Source: a virus
Length of the DNA stretch: 64,000 bases
Virus record (IMG/VR): IMGVR_UViG_3300042878_000198
Span: 1 to 64,000 of that record
Reading direction: 5' to 3' (one strand)
Shown: positions 9,201 through 57,608 of the stretch, piece by piece
Layout of the letters: each line of letters opens with the position of its first letter
Numbering within the stretch: position 1 is the stretch's first letter
The notes under the pieces: generated by a model
The model's database searches: none
The model's input: the letters and a program-made list of their open reading frames with translations, nothing else
What the model was told of the DNA's origin: nothing
Position numbers and translations under genes: made by a program

Positions 9201-9666
9201 CTATAAATTCAGGAGCTCTACCCGTAGTCTTAACCCCAGAGATGCCCATTGGGCCAAACATTACCTCTTCAGTATACGGGGGTTGTGTGGGCTGGTCAGG
9301 TTGAACAGATGGTATTTGCTCAGGCAAAGGCTTTCCGGGTTGATACCCGAACTGAGCCATCTCAGGTTCAACTGATTCGGACGAAGCCAAAGAACCAAGT
9401 GCCGAAGGTAATGCCGTAGTATCTTCTTTTTTTTTTAACTCTGCTGACATTTCAGGTTCTTGACCTGAGGCTTTTATAGGGGATACACCCATCAATATTT
9501 TATAATCGTCTATTGATTTTTTGTATCCATTCTGTACGGATAAATTATAAATATCATTTAAAGCATTTGAATTGGTAGAAAGCAATGTCTTAAATTCATC
9601 AACTGATTTCTTGTATCCATTCTGTACCGCTAGGTTGTACGAGTCTATAATAGCCTGTTCGTTCAT
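241..9666 (-). CDS. giant polyvalent-type virion protein, 3141 aa, probably ejected
   Basis: Last gene of the late block, where podoviruses keep internal or ejected proteins. Two tandem 30-residue units open the protein (residues 10-29 and 40-59, both with VQNGYKKS). A GNAT-like segment lies at about 615-740 with the acetyl-CoA-loop-like GQEGTGIG. A zincin motif HEVAH sits near 890, and a second HExxH motif (HEIQHYIQ) near 1517. Long helical, lysine-rich stretches follow, then a hydrophobic segment near 2800-2835. This mix of enzymatic modules in one chain matches the large polyvalent proteins described for phages and conjugative elements, thought to enter the host with the DNA. Whether any module is active is unknown. 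I saw no DxDGD RNA-polymerase motif. Start chosen at the only sensible ATG after the neighbour's stop. Confidence 0.85.
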   Translation of the reverse strand: MNEQAIIDSYNLAVQNGYKKSVDEFKTLLSTNSNALNDIYNLSVQNGYKKSIDDYKILMGVSPIKASGQEPEMSAELKKKEDTTALPSALGSLASSESVEPEMAQFGYQPGKPLPEQIPSVQPDQPTQPPYTEEVMFGPMGISGVKTTGRAPEFIGKSIPKVFGEIGKVLAKGAIKSPAGVLETAAIATAAATNLVAKTGLVDETSALNVNLPLGANVNLYQAASEWKDLINDFIPTDKDIESGFWGQVSNALGEMVPIILTGGMSGGAMAIAKEAGKKGISMQAVANYSKNIVSRIGTAQGVLTISQVAAPSYKQAKLEGATENEALGFAIQNAVMTFPLEMLPVNNLFKRLDNVLVGNKGVEILKRAVVGGGEELITEGVQAVYENVTADAIYGTTRGFLDGVGEAAAVGGTVGAIMNGVLTALLGRRARATSDEEIEEIDKSIKDVEKKIAQVDSNNESLKETVKVLEENKLRKLSYGSADYNFIESPKGDLEYADDALTEEQAQGIVGNLANSYKKIDFQIQEVEPDDPYQPTTYKIIGKPKTIQQDAVQEQAAGEVPVQSGATVGQEVEQGVPQAEPQVTTEAGVQEEVVTKKQLPEGVVIESAITEEGEIDYDAEEQVKDIAKKRNLGITSDREIAYVARDADGNVIGGAFTSYDGYKYTFDVVVDEGQEGTGIGSNLLDAVLKMPSDIKDENPKAITEVDVVNPVMQKMLEARGFKVKQKLGEGRVLMRPVAPSKTKKTKATISPAVSSSVSPATEATPAVSQLTQEQQMASMEQMFAEEEAPTTTANQGVSVTNKSAVDNIKTKTTDKQRVKVIESAQRVLKTLKSVLPNFDIVLHDEEGSFNTAMDEIGGAKDSRGNFAIYKDGSGRIDINLNSANSSTVAHEVAHAIMAKAFNGTPELYKSFRDRISKVLNESSNNMLMEFSENYNEDASYEEYLAELTAVLEQQEATLSVNTFQKIAAIINDVVSKLTNGTFKPFQDIKDTKQLVDFFNSISSSIRQGEDIELNGGGEVGTFNFGSKSRVDVKDAPSVANDSRSFIKDLVQDVDIRDFSGKKFVTNMYDYTNAGVTDLGNGFTINMLGGKNYVPYMMSLQDKKIGDVSNLAAFNNKAQAESFARNAIQGQASLFAPHSGTLSESWQFQQHTFAELVNLIIDKKIMSDSELIDVFNKTISSNKDNKKAFDAFKTKAGKDISNFDSFKDNPKQIVDLLDIKNNYSPNLRKALNNAISADKTFQKAIGIKNKEEFFNRIMDPLNDGVKGGEIINVVEFDPKTFQIVQTKAGALDHHPSFGWSILAKINGIYQPTQFYNSSNVTDNYVKYNKSGEEVSRKADEPNFEKKNVSSSAGSIPKVAEFNEPIEKEMPISKAQLIGKNANLSATVKRKLIEAEAMDDNKISPQIIRNSTGWEKGKEGKWRYEIPDGKFKDIDLNDLKKQLDIQNNDAESRVAILGDIFSAPDLFAAYPDAKKITVQFKKLDDEDLGEYIPSQNKINISLDLYNKNKNEAEMTMLHEIQHYIQNIEVFETGSNPKYAEAMMKVIVNISKNLVDKTKEDIKLYKKYVSPIVKEDLNKLTDSYKSVLATYKRMVELSKEKFTTAEKEYIRKEATYRIEEKGGKVDEKILADIFKKLNKKADGYNLYRRVSGEVEAKNVEIRAKMTPEQRRKTLLSETEGFSREDQIMFDNFPLMLQEDVKNIKKEFPVSKSQLNTEAKAKKVVQQARAQGFSEEVIKSFLEGKGVSKADIKKAMAKDVPAAGRITLSEETISGYDSLMGRIENLIINGVDSKEVISKLKNSKTYTEATDVQKEKLVRDVRKMLGLRQKSAPTAKRILGQLKDITKITMTETQVLKKRIKELAEGAVAAKKSIAEANKFLADEIKQMGTDGKITLNQATSLTVRALKMNPLSEASISNFVDYVAKVFSKAEYVGKMTTALAQIKKAKENIKTKIGIAQDLFEPLNQLLSINPTLIPLNQLEKYLGILEDFSARKAVLSIPDRVKVLKQVNEILDEIKNERSSVDALADRFNNYNDKVFNEDGELNYSETIKSMIDKGSITVDEADLMRKYKSEILPQVEKVDLTDAEIEADKKKEIEILKALKIDNKEFPLPSRDEKEDAINLAKLIKELSVEELMNLSLTDLKNIIKVINNINNGYLPHYAKIVVEKLNSIKSGKVLSGSIEKAKPLAFSKLYSRAKEKLKDSKLGAFKKTIDELIRANPLYYIDNVFGDFKTRDIFNSLFEKSAQGLSRFNSELKRVDQKIEAAQNKVLASFTQNPDKYLMSKFRMTTYMLQREYESNVGKKGVKPVADYLKATIKHIRIGNSVFKDADADKLEKILEEVESYTTKGEVDLDKFYNTFNDAEKNAIKVMTEINESLGEKAAYTASVIRGNKVELMDNYFHHNVLHEQSPMDDTAAPEFSNSYSKSMKPSTKAKSLIERTDALTPLNFDLFTSTQKGAKFVLLDYNMTSPIRTARRTLIQAEKNLQKVADKKARDEAKKKGVTDENKLNEITGIIPKQQRDINNAINNAYEEALQNILTNSISQDALGNEVIDFIQKQGYRTALAGTVRFKGELLSNIANALIINPKALGTGIMNAKLIASANGYEFMKNAKSKQTSRLYSSDALSGKLVDPQILKQTSGIKGSVSKGALLNRTTQIYNLTLKKLVQNPVEYIADTMLTTPDKVVSMPLWFGSFMNEFKRITGEEVNQEMMINNDLDYMQKNADAIEQATRKADQESVYSGAANNEFMGVLKGKLKPDQSFTQKAWNNFNSFMTNFMNFDYAAARSAVYNLFNEGYMTKQKAAAVLAGITTRSVIYQVMVANMGAGVVGAALGLAFDWEDEEEVDEKSFFQMLGRGLANVFIGYTVGRNFGNGVRGMINFGVEKINEEYLDFLRNGEYDFYKDNIAYTYVNVGDRGDIDVAKMGISMAGPYTPALNTTVLIGKNFGALSSRVMGEGTTKKEPEAIRREDMTINYRIPLELAGNAGLIPFYKDVKRAVNDEIYKDLRKAANTPDSSITTPDDYDKLKDLKELKNKTKNQEERRAIDKKIVEIVGSEEAKASIDKQKEALTAKKKSLLYDRSGGRRYNNESDMKRLNPALWRKRFGPNSDWDKKTKAKEAVESKLQKESTAREDKEFKKNKRGN

Positions 9667-46645: not shown

Positions 46646-46893
46646 ATTGTTCTTACAAATAAAGGAGTCTTTTCACCAACGTATGAGTTTAGAATATTGT
46701 AATCATAAAACTCAGAAGCCTCATCATAACTCATCCCGTCTTCCATTAGTATTCTTATGATTTTGTCAACGTCATACACAAGTCTACCACTAGCATCGTC
46801 AAGGCCAATTATAGCATCATCATAACCGTCAGCTATCAAGAATTCCTCATCAGGCCACAACTCAATCATTTGCTCAATCTTAGTTCTGCTCAT
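46642..46893 (-). CDS. conserved small phage protein, 83 aa
   Basis: Starts MSRTKIEQMIELWPDEEFLI and continues with DGYDDAIIGLD, YDEASEFYDYNILNSYVG and EKTPLFV. This pattern (pairs of aromatic and acidic residues, Y-V-G-x-K-T-P) is a family I recognise from many phages, function unknown. The inner ATG at 46893 was preferred over 46947 because the upstream part overlaps groEL too far. It overlaps groEL and the next gene by a few bases. Confidence 0.75.
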   Translation of the reverse strand: MSRTKIEQMIELWPDEEFLIADGYDDAIIGLDDASGRLVYDVDKIIRILMEDGMSYDEASEFYDYNILNSYVGEKTPLFVRTI

Positions 46894-48505
46894 AGCTACG
46901 TGCCATTGTAATGATGGCGTTAGTGGATAGAATTGTGACAGCAACACTGACAGCGTTCTGCAATGCAGACCTAGTTACCTTTAATGGGTCAATAACACCC
47001 ATGTCAATTAGGTCACCCATCTGCCCTGTCTTCAAATTGTAGCCATGTCCCACCTGAACTGCATCTTTGTAGACATCACTCGGCAACAACCCTGCATTTG
47101 CAAGGATTTGTTGGAATGGAGCCATCATTGCGTTGACCATTATCTTTAATGCCGCCTCATGCTCATCACTAATGTTGAGGTCAACCATCTCAGCAAGCAA
47201 AGTAGCGCTCTCATCTACCAATGCTCTGCCAGCTCCGGGTAATATACCCTCCTCAAGTGCTGAACGCACCGCACAAACAGCGTCATCGACCCTGTCATAC
47301 AGCTCCTTCTGCTCCAAGTCAGTCTGGCCACCCACAAATATGACCCCAATGCCGCCCGTTAATGACGCAATGCGCTCCAAAATAAAGTCTTTGTCCGCTT
47401 TGCGTGTACTTTGCTCATGTGATTGCCACAATTGTGCTACTCTCGAATCAATTGACCCTTGGTCAACTTTAGCTGAGCTACGAATAATGATGGTTTTGTC
47501 CTTTGACACAATGACTTTTGCTGCATGACCCAAGTCACCATAGTTAATATGGCTCAAATCGTCACCAGTCTTCTCACTGAAGTAGGTTGCACCTACACTA
47601 ATCGCAATATCTTGCATCAGCTCGTGCTGCTTGTAACCAAAATTAGGCGGAGCAACAGCACAAACCTTTAAATTACCCTTCATGCTGTTAGCAGCAAGCG
47701 TGTTTACCACGTTCACATTGCACGGTGAGATAATCAATAGCTTCTTACCCTCTGAAATGATGGGCTTCAACACGTTCTCAATCTGCAATATGTTCGCAAT
47801 CTCCATGTCAGCCACTAATACCATCACATCATCGAAGATGCACTCGTCCTTCTTCATGTCATTAATGAACAGATTGCTCAAATAGCCCCTGTCAATCTTT
47901 AATCCCTTCGTAGTCTGGGAATATGTCTCACTAGTTTGGCTTCGCTCAACAGTAACTACACCGCTCTTGCCAACCTCCTTGTAAACCTCAGATATAATCT
48001 TCCCAATCTCCCGGTCGTTGTTAGCACTAAGAGCAGCAACATCCAATAACATTGAAGTGCTTACCTTCTTGGACTTCTTGCGAAGCTTCTCCACCACCTT
48101 ATTGCTGATGTCCACCATGTGTCTTAACACCTCGGTCCTATTCATTACCTCAGTGATATGCTCAAGCCCTCCAAGCACCAATCCTTCTGTCAATACAATC
48201 GCAGTTGTAGTACCGTCACCAGCAGTAGTAGCAGTGCGGTCAGCGGCCTCCTTCATCATCTTAACCGCAAGGTTCTCAACCGGGTCAATCAAGTCAATCG
48301 ACCTAGCGACAGTTACACCGTCCTTAGTTACTGTGATACCATGCGTGTGATTGGGGCTCTCTATTAACACCGTATTACCCGAAGGGCCTAGTGTTGACTT
48401 TACAGCCTTGGACATCTTTACGATGCCACTAATTAGTTTGGTTCTACCCTCGGTACCAAACTTTAAGTCCTTGGGCGAATAACCCAGTCCTGATGTCTCT
48501 ACCAT
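46880..48505 (-). CDS. groEL: phage GroEL (chaperonin-60), 541 aa
   Basis: Full-length chaperonin. ATP-site motifs are present: TLGPSGNTVLI (about 38), KDGVTVA (about 61), GDGTTTAIVL (about 96) and RVDDAVCAVRSALEEGILPG (about 400-420). The catalytic Asp equivalents of E. coli Asp52, Asp87 and Asp398 are kept. The middle apical segment FINDMKKDECIFDDVMVLVA fits substrate/GroES binding. The C-terminus ends ARSYEQN without a GGM tail. The ring-forming protein would work with the phage GroES encoded three genes downstream. A promoter box and an inverted repeat precede the start, suggesting separate control. Confidence 0.95.
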   Translation of the reverse strand: MVETSGLGYSPKDLKFGTEGRTKLISGIVKMSKAVKSTLGPSGNTVLIESPNHTHGITVTKDGVTVARSIDLIDPVENLAVKMMKEAADRTATTAGDGTTTAIVLTEGLVLGGLEHITEVMNRTEVLRHMVDISNKVVEKLRKKSKKVSTSMLLDVAALSANNDREIGKIISEVYKEVGKSGVVTVERSQTSETYSQTTKGLKIDRGYLSNLFINDMKKDECIFDDVMVLVADMEIANILQIENVLKPIISEGKKLLIISPCNVNVVNTLAANSMKGNLKVCAVAPPNFGYKQHELMQDIAISVGATYFSEKTGDDLSHINYGDLGHAAKVIVSKDKTIIIRSSAKVDQGSIDSRVAQLWQSHEQSTRKADKDFILERIASLTGGIGVIFVGGQTDLEQKELYDRVDDAVCAVRSALEEGILPGAGRALVDESATLLAEMVDLNISDEHEAALKIMVNAMMAPFQQILANAGLLPSDVYKDAVQVGHGYNLKTGQMGDLIDMGVIDPLKVTRSALQNAVSVAVTILSTNAIITMARSYEQN

Positions 48506-49554: not shown

Positions 49555-49820
49555 GATAATTAGAGTGTGGGGGCTATATAGCAGTTTGACGCAGCGAGCT
49601 TGCTGCAGGAAACGACTTTTTTTTGATGGGGTGGGGGTCGGATTTGGTCGGCCCCTGTCCGATTTTTTGGCGTTTTGCCTAGCCTCTGGATAGCCCCGGG
49701 GCAGGGCCCGAGGCTCCCCCGGGGCTCCATGGCCCGAAGGCCCGAAGGCCCTAGCTACCTGCCTGCCTGCCTGCTTGCGCCATGGGGAGCACACGCCATG
49801 GAGAGTACAGGAGAGACAAC
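49555..49820. other. GC-rich non-coding island
   Basis: A run of strongly GC-rich DNA in an AT-rich genome. It holds AGCCCCGG with its complement (49692-49699 and 49719-49726), GGCCCGAA twice in tandem plus a half (49731-49751), CTGC four times (49759-49774), and a hairpin GTCGG/CCGAT followed by six T residues near 49650-49675. Reading frames across it are low-complexity and unlikely to code. It could be a structured RNA, an origin part or acquired DNA. Confidence 0.6.
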
Positions 49821-49850
49821 AAGAGGGGTCTCTTTATACGTGCCTATTCC

Positions 49851-49892
49851 TTGTCACGCTAAAACTTCGTGCCCTAATAGTTGTCACGCTAA
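49851..49892. repeat. TTGTCACGCTAA direct repeat
   Basis: Two exact copies (49851-49862 and 49881-49892), 30 bases apart, about three helical turns. The TTGTCAC half is shared with the inverted repeat at 49338, so the same protein may bind both. Confidence 0.55.
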
Positions 49893-49956
49893 CTAATTGA
49901 CTATAAAAAAATTACAGGGATATTTAAAAAAAATTTAAAAATATTTTACAAAATGC

Positions 49957-49985
49957 TTGCATATGTACTAGTAATGTGCTAGAAT
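49957..49985 (+). promoter_or_regulatory. sigma-70-like promoter for the structured leader
   Basis: TTGCAT, 17-base spacer, TAGAAT. It is embedded in near-perfect inverted arms TGCATATGTAC (49958-49968) and GTACATGCA (49987-49995), so a bound repressor would cover it. It is likely the first early promoter, reading through the structured RNA. Confidence 0.5.
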
Positions 49986-50010
49986 TGTACATGCATTCAG
50001 CGACAGACCC

Positions 50011-50139
50011 AAACGGGGCCCTAGCGTGCACGGGTGTTCGGCACTCTCCCGCGTGTAGTTACGTAGGGCAACCGACAGCTCCAAAGAGGGAGCATATATA
50101 GGGCGTGCTGGCTTATATGGGTTCGATTCCCAACGCCCT
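50011..50139 (+). ncRNA. structured leader RNA ending in a tRNA acceptor/T-arm mimic
   Basis: Three successive helices: CACGGG with CCCGCGTG (50029-50055), GCTCC with GGAGC (50078-50093), and CATATA with TATATG (50093-50119). The 3' end is a minihelix: AGGGCGT (50100-50106) pairs with ACGCCCT (50133-50139), with a T-arm-like GGGTTCGATTCCC stacked on it. D- and anticodon-arm positions are missing, so it is not a normal tRNA. The last helices are mutually exclusive with CATATA/TATATG. It may be an RNase P substrate or a leader that folds into two states. Confidence 0.5.
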
Positions 50140-50176
50140 GCTATTCAATCAATAATCAATCAAAACCCCTAAAAAC

Positions 50177-50880: not shown

Positions 50881-51411
50881 ATGAAAACTCGTTTCAGTTC
50901 AAATTCAGCTCTTGCCCAAGCATGGGCGACCCAAAGCCAACCCGAAGGTAAGGGTAATTCGATGTTTTTTGTCAATGAGAACGTATACTCCTACGGCTAC
51001 CACTATGTGGCGGGCACTATTCTAGAAGCCAAGGATGGCCAAAAGGTTGCCATCATCAATGGCACGCCCAATAGCATTACCACGGCCAAGCATGTGGGTG
51101 AAGTAATGTCGGCTTCAATTAAGATATACCACACCTTCAAAATCCCATTTGGCCGTTCATTTAGTGTAGACAAGTTGCCAGCCATCTTGGAAGTGATGAC
51201 CAAGGATGTGGAGAAGTTGTCCGAGAAGCAATTGCGAGCACGTACATCAACGCATAACTTCTACATGGCCTTGCACAAGGTGGATGACATTAAAGAGTTA
51301 AGCAGGCTCTTTGACCTGCCAGTGCCCAATACGTCAAGTTTTAAATACTTTGGTGAGGCATCTGCAAATGCATTTAATAAGCGTGCCAAAAGGTTAACTG
51401 ACGAGTCCTAA
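50881..51411 (+). CDS. hypothetical early protein, 176 aa
   Basis: Starts MKTRFSSNSALAQAWATQSQ and contains NVYSYGYHYVAGTIL, GEVMSASIKIYHTFKIPFGR and a C-terminal RTSTHNFYMALHKVDDI region; beta then helical. The family is not certain. The start at 50881 was chosen over 50821 because it follows an AACCAAAACACAC leader, also used by the next gene. The final codons form part of a hammerhead ribozyme. Confidence 0.75.
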   Translation: MKTRFSSNSALAQAWATQSQPEGKGNSMFFVNENVYSYGYHYVAGTILEAKDGQKVAIINGTPNSITTAKHVGEVMSASIKIYHTFKIPFGRSFSVDKLPAILEVMTKDVEKLSEKQLRARTSTHNFYMALHKVDDIKELSRLFDLPVPNTSSFKYFGEASANAFNKRAKRLTDES

Positions 51412-51443
51412 TTGGACGAAAGCCCCCTCGGGGGTTCTTAACC
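51392..51443 (+). ncRNA. hammerhead ribozyme, type I
   Basis: Complete three-stem hammerhead. Stem I GGTTAA (51392-51397) pairs with TTAACC (51438-51443) and is open. The core is CTGACGA (51398-51404). Stem II is GTCC/GGAC with loop TAATT (51405-51417). GAA plus A follows (51418-51421). Stem III is AGCCCC/GGGGTT with loop CTCG (51421-51436). The cleavage triplet is TTC, so the cut falls after C 51437. All conserved core positions (CUGANGA, GAAA, UH) are present. Stem II contains the stop codon of the preceding gene. Cleavage leaves a 22-base leader for the next gene. Confidence 0.9.
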
Positions 51444-51459
51444 AAAACACACACACACT

Positions 51460-51672
51460 ATGGGAAGATTTATCACCGCCAGATTCAAAAGCGCTTGCGC
51501 TGAGACAGGCAAAACAATCAACAAAGGCGAGTCCATCTACTTTGATGGCAAGGCCTATTGCGTGGATTCTAAGGCCTACAGGGACAGAAAAGAGGCCAAC
51601 CAGACCTTTGCCCACATCAAGGCAAATGAGGACGCTTACTATGACAATTTCTGTATTCAAAACAACATCTAA
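51460..51672 (+). CDS. small conserved-type phage protein with Cys motif, 70 aa
   Basis: MGRFITARFKSACAETGKTI, then NKGESIYFDGKAYCVDSKAY. The C-A-x-T-G-K-x-I-x-K-G-E-x-I pattern resembles small proteins with a treble-clef-like cysteine start. Family not named. It begins 23 bases after the type I hammerhead cut and uses the AACCAAAACAC leader. Confidence 0.65.
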   Translation: MGRFITARFKSACAETGKTINKGESIYFDGKAYCVDSKAYRDRKEANQTFAHIKANEDAYYDNFCIQNNI

Positions 51673-51689
51673 CCAAACCCCTTTTAACT

Positions 51690-51884
51690 ATGTTTTACCA
51701 AATCAATTTCGAAAAGAGACGTGAGTTAATCCAAGACGTAATCGACCGCTTGACCCGTCTAAATGCCGAGCAAGGTGCTCAATATCTGCAGGAGTTAGAA
51801 AGCTTGCACGACAGGTTCAACCTAAATTTAAAAACGAACGCCATGGGTGTCCGACACTATCCAATTAACCAAAATCTAAAATAA
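51690..51884 (+). CDS. hypothetical early protein, 64 aa
   Basis: Helical, with a basic-acid alternation (EKRRELIQDVIDRLTRLNAE). A leader CTAACCAAAC lies upstream. Not recognised; short spacing to both neighbours supports an operon gene. Confidence 0.6.
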   Translation: MFYQINFEKRRELIQDVIDRLTRLNAEQGAQYLQELESLHDRFNLNLKTNAMGVRHYPINQNLK

Positions 51885-51885
51885 G

Positions 51886-52071
51886 ATGACCGACCTATTT
51901 GAAACAATGGAAGAACTACCTGAGCGAGTTCAAAAAATCCTGTGGGAATATGCTTGGGAGGAAAAAAGCTATGAGGCGTGTGAGAGAATGTTAATCGACC
52001 TAGAAGCCGAGGGCTACACGTTTGAGTTTGGCCTAGATGCCGAGCCGTTTAATCTAACTAAAATGGACTAA
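51886..52071 (+). CDS. hypothetical early protein, 61 aa
   Basis: Acidic, aromatic-rich small protein (MTDLFETMEELPERVQKILW, then EYAWEEKSYEACERMLIDLE). It starts one base after the preceding stop. No family recognised. Confidence 0.6.
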   Translation: MTDLFETMEELPERVQKILWEYAWEEKSYEACERMLIDLEAEGYTFEFGLDAEPFNLTKMD

Positions 52072-52075
52072 GCAG

Positions 52076-52237
52076 GTGGAAAAGAAAATTTATTTCAGCG
52101 TCTGGATAAGCAAGGAATTGATTTGGGAGGGCTTAGCGTCCTCCTCATTTGAGGCAATTGACAGGGCGTACTCAAAATACGCCCACCTTGAGCCCCCTAT
52201 AAATCGGTCCCAATTGTACGCAAAAGTAAAAAAATAA
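52076..52237 (+). CDS. small protein with GTG start, 53 aa
   Basis: A GTG-initiated frame 4 bases after the previous stop encodes MEKKIYFSVWISKELIWEGL and continues to YAHLEPPINRSQLYAKVKK. There is no ATG in frame; GTG is the only start. The balanced composition and position make it likelier than chance, but it could be non-coding. Confidence 0.45.
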   Translation: MEKKIYFSVWISKELIWEGLASSSFEAIDRAYSKYAHLEPPINRSQLYAKVKK

Positions 52238-52256
52238 AGCATTGCGCTTGGATAAG

Positions 52257-52286
52257 TTCATATCTGGCACTATGTTCGCTTATAAT
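52257..52286 (+). promoter_or_regulatory. sigma-70-like promoter inside the early operon
   Basis: TTCATA, 18-base spacer, perfect TATAAT, 31 bases before the next ATG. It may refresh early transcription within the ribozyme-flanked segment. Confidence 0.45.
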
Positions 52287-52317
52287 TAGTTCAACATCCA
52301 ATAAATCAAACAAAATC

Positions 52318-52518
52318 ATGGAAATCAAAATTATTGACGGCTTCGTCTGGTTAATCGTAACCCGACAGGCAAAAGAAGTATTCGAGTCAAACCTATTCGA
52401 GTTGTATGCAGTCTATGAAGATGGCTCTGAAGGGTTAATTTTCGACCTTGAAAGTCTAGAAAAGTGCATTGCAAACGGCACTAATATTGGTATCGAAGGA
52501 GGATTCATCAACACTTAA
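52318..52518 (+). CDS. hypothetical early protein, 66 aa
   Basis: MEIKIIDGFVWLIVTRQAKE, beta-rich and acidic, then a short Gly-rich tail. It follows an ATAATTAG region and an AAATCAAACAAAATC leader. Not recognised. Confidence 0.6.
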   Translation: MEIKIIDGFVWLIVTRQAKEVFESNLFELYAVYEDGSEGLIFDLESLEKCIANGTNIGIEGGFINT

Positions 52519-52522
52519 AACT

Positions 52523-52756
52523 ATGTACGCATACAAAATCAACACCACGCCATACAGCGAGGAGGGCTTCTTGCTTATTACAGACTTGACAGGACCAGAG
52601 GTCGAGGATGTAATTTATCCCATCGTACTAGCCGAGCGGGAGCAGGGCATAGACTATACCAACGAGCAGTTGGTTAAGGAGCTCAAGAAGAAATATCCAA
52701 AGAGTTCTATCAAGGCTTACTATTCGTCTCAAGACTTTATGGAGCTATCTTTCTAA
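52523..52756 (+). CDS. paralogous small early protein A, 77 aa
   Basis: Starts MYAYKINTTPYSEEGFLLIT and ends with KSSIKAYYSSQDFMELSF. It is about one third identical to the gene at 53512, with matching blocks (K/E-I-N-T-T, F-L/I-L-x-T-x-L-T, Y-T-N). The upstream ORF start was rejected because it lies inside the previous gene. Paralogy with short genes in the same operon suggests duplication. Confidence 0.7.
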   Translation: MYAYKINTTPYSEEGFLLITDLTGPEVEDVIYPIVLAEREQGIDYTNEQLVKELKKKYPKSSIKAYYSSQDFMELSF

Positions 52757-52765
52757 ATTACGGGA

Positions 52766-52787
52766 GGGGTGTCTTCAAAGACACTCC
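52766..52787 (+). other. hairpin abutting the type III hammerhead
   Basis: GGGGTGTCT (52766-52774) pairs with AGACACTCC (52779-52787), one G-U, tight loop. It begins 10 bases after the stop codon and ends one base before ribozyme stem III. It may block 3' exonucleases on the upstream cleavage product. Confidence 0.65.
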
Positions 52788-52788
52788 C

Positions 52789-52841
52789 TTCAGTCCATGG
52801 GTGTGTGCCCATGCTGATGAGACTAAAAAGTCGAAACTGAA
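52789..52841 (+). ncRNA. hammerhead ribozyme, type III
   Basis: Complete hammerhead with open stem III. TTCAGT (52789-52794) pairs with ACTGAA (52836-52841). C 52795 is the cleavage base (GTC). Stem I CATGGG/CCCATG has loop TGTGTG (52796-52813). The core is CTGATGA (52814-52820). Stem II is GACT/AGTC with loop AAAA (52821-52832). GAAA follows (52833-52836). Every conserved core base is present and all three stems pair perfectly. It lies wholly between two early genes, so it would cut the polycistronic mRNA there. Confidence 0.95.
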
Positions 52842-52863: not shown

Positions 52864-53103
52864 ATGAACAAACAAACAAAAGCAACCCATTGGGTACTCG
52901 CATACGGAAGGGATTGCGATGGCTACAATTCAGGACACATTTATGCATTCGACAACGAGAAGGATGCCAATGATTGCGAGCGTGAATCGAACTATTCTTC
53001 TGATGGCCTAAGGTATTTTGCCACTAGCGTCTGGTCGGATGTCGAGGAGTACTGCGATGATTACAACAAGGACTCATCAAGATACAAAACCATTACAACA
53101 TGA
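52864..53103 (+). CDS. hypothetical early protein, 79 aa
   Basis: Acidic, aromatic-rich (MNKQTKATHWVLAYGRDCDG; DNEKDANDCERESNYSSDGL). No family recognised. First gene after the type III hammerhead. Its leader AACCAAAATAAACC overlaps the 3' strand of the ribozyme, so cleavage or refolding could change its translation. Confidence 0.65.
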   Translation: MNKQTKATHWVLAYGRDCDGYNSGHIYAFDNEKDANDCERESNYSSDGLRYFATSVWSDVEEYCDDYNKDSSRYKTITT

Positions 53104-53375
53104 AAAAAGAAATCAATTTCGACCACGATGCCAAGTCCCTAGTGGATGCGCTTGGCATTGAACCGCACGCATTTGCAACCCAGCTGGCAGCCGTGATGGC
53201 TATCTACGAGGCCAATGACGAAAACAAAGTGAGTAAACTTAGCCATCTGGTGCACTCATGCATTGACTACAAAATTATTTTGTTGATGGCCACTACCCAA
53301 CTGGTTGGTGTTGTTGAGCGCTTCAACAACTCAAATGACATGGATGACTTGTTTAACACCCTATCAAAAAACTAG
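53100..53375 (+). CDS. hypothetical early protein, 91 aa
   Basis: Helical protein (VDALGIEPHAFATQLAAVMA; IYEANDENKVSKLSHLVHSC). Start overlaps the upstream stop (ATGA). No family recognised. Confidence 0.65.
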   Translation: MKKEINFDHDAKSLVDALGIEPHAFATQLAAVMAIYEANDENKVSKLSHLVHSCIDYKIILLMATTQLVGVVERFNNSNDMDDLFNTLSKN

Positions 53376-57429: not shown

Positions 57430-57491
57430 GGGAGGCTAAGGGACCCCACCTGCCTGCAATTGGGGTGTGAGGTGTTAGCAGGTAGTCTCCC
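57430..57491 (+). ncRNA. pseudoknotted RNA element before the tRNA-like gene
   Basis: GGGAGGCT (57430-57437) pairs with AGTCTCCC (57484-57491, one G-U). Inside, ACCCCA (57443-57448) pairs with TGGGGT (57461-57466), and ACCTGC in that loop (57448-57453) pairs with GCAGGT (57478-57483), an H-type pseudoknot. The outer helix is followed by CTTTT, so termination or processing is possible. A competing CACCT/AGGTG helix exists. It stands between the last recombination genes and the tRNA-like locus. Confidence 0.5.
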
Positions 57492-57500
57492 TTTTAAAAT

Positions 57501-57608
57501 AGTCAGGTGGCGGAATTGGTAACGCACATATAACTAGAGTCCTGCAGGCTCGACCATAAAGATAATTATATGGTGGTATAAATACAGGTTCGAATCCTGT
57601 CCTGACTA
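57501..57608 (+). tRNA. tRNA-like gene with Leu-type D-arm and enlarged anticodon arm
   Basis: Acceptor AGTCAGG pairs perfectly with CCTGACT, with A discriminator and no encoded CCA. The D-arm GCG-GAATTGGTAA-CGC is leucine-like. The T-arm ACAGG-TTCGAAT-CCTGT is perfect. In the anticodon position, CATATAA (57527-57533) pairs with TTATATG (57566-57572) around a 32-base loop, holding GAGTCCTGCAGGCTC, instead of a 7-base loop. No 5+7+5 arm fits. It could be an interrupted tRNA, a long-variable-arm tRNA misread by eye, or a tRNA mimic. An mRNA hairpin follows. Confidence 0.6.

Follow-up and report, generated by a model that had tools for sequence, protein, structure and literature searches.

Hammerhead ribozymes at early gene junctions of a phage: two layouts and a possible role in forming hairpin-capped mRNA ends

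What does a hammerhead ribozyme do between two small phage genes? The role of bacterial and phage hammerheads has been called an open question (PMC6155905). The question is raised here by a virus record from IMG/VR. The DNA analysed, hereafter the window, comprises 64,000 of the record's 64,951 bases. Between 50 and 64 kb the + strand encodes small ORFs, a Sak-like annealing protein, exonuclease VIII, a primase and a helicase. We call this block the early region, a label chosen by analogy. The left part of the window runs in the opposite direction, with long ORFs and a GroEL-like gene. The latter, a phage-encoded chaperonin at 46880-48505 (-), matches PF00118 (E 7e-56); GroEL-like genes also occur in the related locus L002 and in MW202828. 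Where the + strand block begins there is a non-coding G+C-rich stretch (49570-50140). The stretch closes with a short tRNA-like acceptor/T-arm element, AGGGCGT...GGGTTCGATTCCC...ACGCCCT (50100-50139), and the first small gene follows closely.

Among named records, relatives of the primase come mostly from phages of Flavobacterium, Polaribacter, Cellulophaga and other Bacteroidota; an uncultured spring podovirus has the best match, at 76.6% identity. When the last 24 kb of the window were compared with 50,697 phage records by megablast, nothing matched, and protein searches of viral contigs with two flanking genes found no relatives. A primase search led to 80 viral contigs, each taken with up to 10 kb on either side. 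The features relevant here are as follows.

50881..51411 (+): gene upstream of the type I hammerhead, 176 aa; ORF with stop codon TAA at 51409-51411, in ribozyme loop II
51392..51443 (+): type I hammerhead ribozyme, predicted cut between 51437 and 51438; descriptor match, covariation and fold
51460..51672 (+): gene downstream of the type I hammerhead, 70 aa; common to loci L004, L005 and L006
52523..52756 (+): gene upstream of the type III hammerhead, 77 aa, family c1, function unknown; ORF with stop codon at 52754-52756
52763..52791 (+): hairpin between stop codon and cut site, with palindrome GTGTCTTCAAAGACAC (52769-52784); folding
52789..52841 (+): type III hammerhead ribozyme, predicted cut between 52795 and 52796; RF00008, own model R1 and covariation
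52864..53103 (+): gene downstream of the type III hammerhead, 79 aa, function unknown; ORF, no relative found in viral contigs
53100..53375 (+): next gene, 91 aa, family c3; homologues in related loci

Identity of the two hammerheads

The initial annotation described a type III hammerhead between two early genes, with a perfect core, a GUC triplet, three paired stems and small loops. All of these are present at the coordinates given, and the two neighbouring genes run in the same direction. Stem III (52789-52794 with 52836-52841, six pairs) is open-ended. Stem I has seven pairs (52796-52802 with 52807-52813) and loop GUGU; stem II has four (52821-52824 with 52829-52832) and loop AAAA. The core, CUGAUGA at 52814-52820 and GAA at 52833-52835, is canonical at every position. 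H17 of the GUC cleavage triplet is C52795. The Rfam family Hammerhead_3 (RF00008) matches with 46.9 bits (E 3.9e-7 for 64 kb and 4227 families), 1.6 bits short of its gathering score of 48.5. Five other loci with type III copies likewise gave no match at that score. The shortfall is a matter of threshold rather than structure; our own covariance model, R1, scores the element at 72.0 bits. The hammerhead fold (-15.6 kcal/mol) is separated by no more than 0.6 kcal/mol from the minimum-energy fold, in which UCAG is instead paired with CUGA. Among 197 type III copies, 92% have a hammerhead fold within 2 kcal/mol of the minimum. With respect to a possible tertiary contact between loops I and II, unpaired loop nucleotides are invariant or nearly so in the type III alignment.

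Compensatory change, on which the initial annotation had made its reading depend, is found in all three helices. Among 31 related copies, standard pairs fill 98.6% of the paired cells, and double changes affect 13 of 17 pairs. The covariation score of this alignment is 0.673, compared with 0.05-0.14 for slid versions. The 31 rows were picked by a descriptor that demands stems. Hence, the pair counts are partly circular and the test was repeated with stems left free. With only the core and loop II fixed, 185 hits with distinct flanks were obtained. Stems I and III are present in 183 of these, compared with 9 of 925 shuffled flanks, and the free stem II is complementary in all 185. At the level of sequence, 52789-52841 (+) is confirmed as a canonical type III hammerhead ribozyme structure, a known kind.

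A covariance model built from 31 descriptor-scan hits identified 49 type III hammerheads in 82 fetched loci (E <=2.7e-10), all on the + strand. It also identified 53 in 23 of 44 whole related records, with 0-4 copies per record. Copies within one phage differ strongly in sequence. In the 44 whole records, no type III hammerhead was found off the early-gene strand. In record G012, the three copies are at one end of the contig; in a circular genome, this end would be continuous with the early block.

The second hammerhead, at 51392-51443, is 1.35 kb upstream. It has the core CUGACGA, an open-ended stem I and the NUH triplet UUC, as expected for type I. Stem III (GCCCC CUCG GGGGU) would form a 3' hairpin on the upstream product. 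Covariation is evident in six relatives. In the orthologous copies of L004 and L006, stems II and III have changed, and the first pair of stem II is C.A. With free-stem patterns for type I, stems II and III are complementary in 129 and 135 of 140 hits, respectively. The relatives of the window's copy have the downstream gene in common, not the upstream one. From Rfam it has no more than a below-threshold match to the RAGATH-1 hammerhead (30.2 of 56.3 bits, E 0.52). Membership of that family (RF03152) was rejected; the gathering score is missed and the 5' hairpin is not evident.

Stop codons, hairpins and gene junctions

Survey loci were gathered with hammerhead patterns, including wide scans of viral contigs for type III-like cores and GGUUAA/UUAACC type I elements, from which loci among the matches listed were taken. 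Hence, the counts below describe variety, not frequency. A stringent descriptor, run on 363 fetched loci (3.9 Mb), matched 227 hammerheads of each type, I and III. None were found in a Markov-shuffled control, which excludes a chance origin. Both types occur together in 27 loci. Where a locus has several hammerheads, all copies are on one strand in 108 of 109 cases.

The two types differ in how they meet the upstream gene. For type III, the upstream stop codon lies a median of 32 nt before the ribozyme (quartiles 26-38). For type I, the stop is at a median of +6 and inside the ribozyme in 67% of cases. In the wide set, 63% of the gaps before type III fold below -12 kcal/mol, compared with 10% when shuffled; the equivalent values for the stretch before type I are 4% and 1% (type III versus type I, p 2e-42). 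For the 40 nt that precede type III in the phage group, the median is -14.7 kcal/mol, compared with -3.55 at 348 control leaders (p 2.5e-26). The effect is weaker after thinning to one copy per sequence cluster, when 17 of 29 are below -8 kcal/mol, a mark that is also passed by 39% of shuffled stretches. The hairpin is not universal. In the window, 52757-52795 folds with -18.3 kcal/mol (z -4.2). The 3' arm of the hairpin extends into the stem III strand that cleavage would free, with 52789-52791 and 52793-52794 paired. Most type III relatives have a hairpin at the equivalent place. The window's hairpin was considered as an intrinsic terminator and rejected because no U-run follows; it is also missing from the list of terminator-like structures.

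We compared the predicted cleavage products. A paired element lies 8 nt or less from the 3' end of the upstream product for 94% of type III and 100% of type I hammerheads. A strictly 3'-terminal hairpin is predicted for 69% and 63%, respectively, compared with 14% and 11% after shuffling. Type I has no extra hairpin because its own stem III already is one, and this caps the upstream product; type III needs a separate hairpin. In 128 of 195 type III copies, the upstream product has one or more paired nucleotides in H17 or the freed stem III strand.

The window's junction can be followed in relatives. The c1 gene at 52523 has homologues in 32 related records and no Pfam match. In L005, its orthologue is followed by a hairpin and a type III hammerhead, which separate it from the orthologue of the gene at 53100 (c3). 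In the window, the hairpin, the hammerhead and one extra gene lie between the two. In L003 and L004, whose primase is 94% identical, the orthologues are joined directly with a 12-nt gap. Hence c3 is immediately 3' of c1 in these loci; it is immediately 3' of the hammerhead in L005 and L006. The hairpin-hammerhead module is dispensable at some junctions. Among larger genes, family c4 (366 aa, with a gamma-glutamyl cyclotransferase-like domain) has a type III hammerhead right behind its stop in 14 of 27 homologues. Family c0 (290 aa) has one right behind the gene in 13 of 23. This indicates that ribozyme positions behind c0 and c4 homologues have been retained over longer times. The c4 homologues of L020 and L046, which have no ribozyme, retain the hairpin and nothing more.

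Other RNA-like elements were seen in this phage group. All 45 tRNA-like shells, in which acceptor and T-arm are paired, lie on the + strand; shuffled sequence gave one. Examples are window 57501-57608, L004:8578-8685 and 9291-9415, L020:1644-1686 and L034:2685-2727, among many others. Often the D-arm is Leu-like, and 11-127 nt of variable sequence replaces the part from D-arm to variable arm. ARAGORN reported 5 tRNAs in 20 loci. The shells may be RNase P/Z processing signals or decoys. Immediately before the window's shell is a G+C-rich self-complementary element at 57430-57491 (GGGAGGCTAAGGGACCCC...GTAGTCTCCC), which has no Rfam match of its own. Near-identical copies are found in L003 and L004, again in front of a tRNA-like element.

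Many contigs of Patescibacteria (CPR; L322-L362) also have type III hammerheads whose loops are the same, for instance L360:2693-2741, L333:6285-6333 and L337:1073-1125. In the two CPR loci inspected, the neighbours look chromosomal (MgsA/RarA-like ATPase, TrmB regulator, glycosyltransferase). A boxA-like GTTCTTTGA (up to one mismatch) follows 20 of 53 CPR type III elements, mostly 0-5 nt past stem III. It follows 0.2% of shuffled and none of 142 viral type III elements. A leader made of a ribozyme and an antitermination box is possible in CPR.

Proposed function and its rivals

Ribozyme identity, placement, layouts and covariation can be read from the sequences themselves. From these, we infer cleavage in cells, the chemistry and protection of the ends, and separate control of neighbouring genes. 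The reading that we consider probable is punctuation: the ribozymes would cut polycistronic early RNA and leave hairpin-capped 3' ends. Briefly, the type III element is predicted from structure and covariation to cut in cis between C52795 and C52796. The upstream message would then end in the stable hairpin 52763-52791 and a short tail with a 2',3'-cyclic phosphate. The downstream message would start in the stem I hairpin with a 5'-hydroxyl. Folding suggests that the upstream hairpin can take up the strand released from stem III by pairing with it, so religation should be disfavoured. At the type I element, the upstream gene stops inside the ribozyme, and stem III itself would be the 3' hairpin. 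The ends would be shielded from exonucleases and from 5'-end-dependent decay. The likely purpose would be to uncouple decay and expression of adjacent early genes without host nucleases or terminators. In the haloviruses HF1/HF2, the major early transcript starts no more than 3 nt from a hammerhead cut site (PMC3088659); we count this as a precedent that supports punctuation.

The scheme may extend further. Many tailed phages would use two interchangeable cassettes: a stop codon, hairpin and type III hammerhead, or a type I hammerhead that includes the stop and its own hairpin. The shared product would be a ribozyme-made, hairpin-capped upstream 3' end, and cleavage would replace termination plus trimming. 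We give this generalisation an even chance. A stronger rule, that hammerheads always belong to the upstream gene, is weakened by the window's type I copy, where it is the downstream gene that is conserved.

The ribozyme could instead serve the gene that follows. Its 5'-hydroxyl, together with the structured 5' end in the case of type III, would stabilise the mRNA or regulate translation. The hairpin would then be a spacer only, keeping the terminating ribosome and upstream RNA away from the ribozyme. Consistent with this, type III remains on the downstream RNA and starts it with a hairpin in 177 of 197 cases, and the first ATG is a median of 22.5 nt (type III) or 17 nt (type I) past the ribozyme. 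The conserved neighbour of the window's type I element is the downstream gene, and in HF1/HF2 the hammerhead precedes an early helicase gene by 13 nt (PMC3088659). Conversely, type I would leave a naked leader, with a paired start in 8 of 211 cases. Hence, no downstream end is common to both types. Furthermore, upstream genes c0, c2 and c4 recur before type III, whereas the genes after it are often different. Short genes in that position are, however, harder to match. We regard service to the downstream gene as unlikely. A role at the DNA level is improbable. Here, the hairpin before type III would be an operator-like site of a phage protein, and its proximity to the ribozyme incidental to RNA ends. 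A GTGTC palindrome forms most hairpins in the phage group and is often present without a ribozyme, including inside genes; 36 ribozyme-linked hairpins contain it, and the fetched loci have about 130 other copies of the palindromic core. Hence, the palindrome may be a DNA site itself. The idea that the hairpin is merely this palindrome holds only in part, and against a DNA-level role, hairpins without it, many with CUUCGG loops, fill the same place in this phage group and in other phages. Type I junctions also have no such hairpin. The 16-base palindrome, GTGTCTTYRAAGACAC, is repeated between and within genes of L008, L009, L010, L046, L056, L070 and others, and MW202828 (L083) has its own version, GTGTCGTTAACGACAC, in about 12 copies. 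These look like a phage-specific binding or regulatory site.

Could the hairpin and hammerhead be a selfish or neutral cassette, moving between junctions and persisting without benefit? Its presence or absence at one junction among close relatives, the 0-4 copies per record and the repetition of the GTGTC palindrome elsewhere are in keeping with this. However, many diverged phages retain the ribozyme behind c0 and c4, and its copies show compensatory changes. Copies inside one phage differ strongly, and the gene array is used on one strand only. We consider such a cassette very improbable. Barely credible is excision, in which two successive hammerheads release 51438-52795 to be ligated to a circle or spliced out. 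The two ribozymes are on the same strand, 1.35 kb apart, and hammerheads bound circular RNAs in retrozymes and satellites (PMC7761336). Yet the two ends derive from unlike ribozyme types, which leaves no complete hammerhead across the junction for self-ligation. The stretch is full of ORFs, and Perreault et al. did not detect such products for other clusters (PMC3088659). No RtcB or RNA_ligase family was found in 20 records, in which searches detected positive controls; the host may have RtcB. Mismatched bounding types and the lack of an RNA ligase family in those records also led us to reject a retrozyme or viroid-like circular RNA.

If punctuation is correct, phages can produce mRNAs with defined ends and need neither host nucleases nor terminators to do so. 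The convergence of two regular layouts on one kind of 3' end would provide a specific, testable mechanism for phage hammerheads. Routine annotation would overlook such ends because the tested copies score below Rfam gathering scores.

Comparison with known systems

Hammerhead clusters around small phage ORFs, possibly involved in mRNA processing, have been described (PMC3088659; PMC6155905; PMC10085705; PMC7761336). Perreault et al. (2011) show clusters labelled I, II or III (PMC3088659). According to a 2017 review, different hammerheads are found near one another around small ORFs and are persistently linked to phages (PMC6155905). In these phage and prophage clusters, as in the window, hammerheads flank single genes or short blocks of small ORFs, and mRNA processing was suggested there. 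With these reports, PaP3 and the 27 loci that hold both types, the initial annotation's view that type I and type III in one operon is unknown to the literature does not stand. A hairpin abutting type III, a stop codon inside type I and a tie to the upstream gene found no mention in the main text of PMC3088659 or the other searchable papers, a limited negative. If they hold, the hairpin and stop-codon rules appear new.

The Pseudomonas phage PaP3 (Bruynoghevirus), whose hammerhead was tested by Perreault et al. (PMC3088659), is a close parallel. It has a type III hammerhead and, ~1.3 kb further, a type I right behind a stop codon. Its type III has loops I and II of the same kind and stands before the first of a small-ORF array, which also holds the type I. 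Conversely, its stem II starts with U-A, compared with G-C in the window, and the short upstream stretch folds weakly. In Clew-1, the sequence allows an upstream AAAGGGG/CCCCUUU hairpin with a long loop. Unannotated type I hammerheads between small ORFs were seen in records of cultured phages: in PaP3 (L363, ~1393-1468), in Cellulophaga phi18:3 (L364, 1495-1549; KC821620 near 21.93 kb; stem I GAUUAA/UUAAUC, just behind gp050) and in Agrobacterium OLIVR1 (L365, 1498-1547).

RAGATH-1 (RF03152) and Hammerhead_1 (RF00163) share the type I topology of the 51392 element, which differs from RAGATH-1 in its score (30.2 bits versus 56.3) and in having no evident 5' hairpin. Theta ribozymes are also self-cleaving RNAs of Bacteroidota and Bacillota phages, in the gut, with a role in RNA maturation (PMC10879173). 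However, they have an HDV-like fold and trim tRNA 3' ends; they are neither hammerheads nor located at mRNA junctions (PMC10879173). The hammerhead of tobacco ringspot virus satellite RNA (sTRSV; RF00008) shares the type III topology, the start of loop I and a 4-nt loop II with the window's element. Loop I of the sTRSV hammerhead starts UGUGU. It processes rolling-circle RNA, whereas the window's hammerhead would cut a linear phage transcript once per junction.
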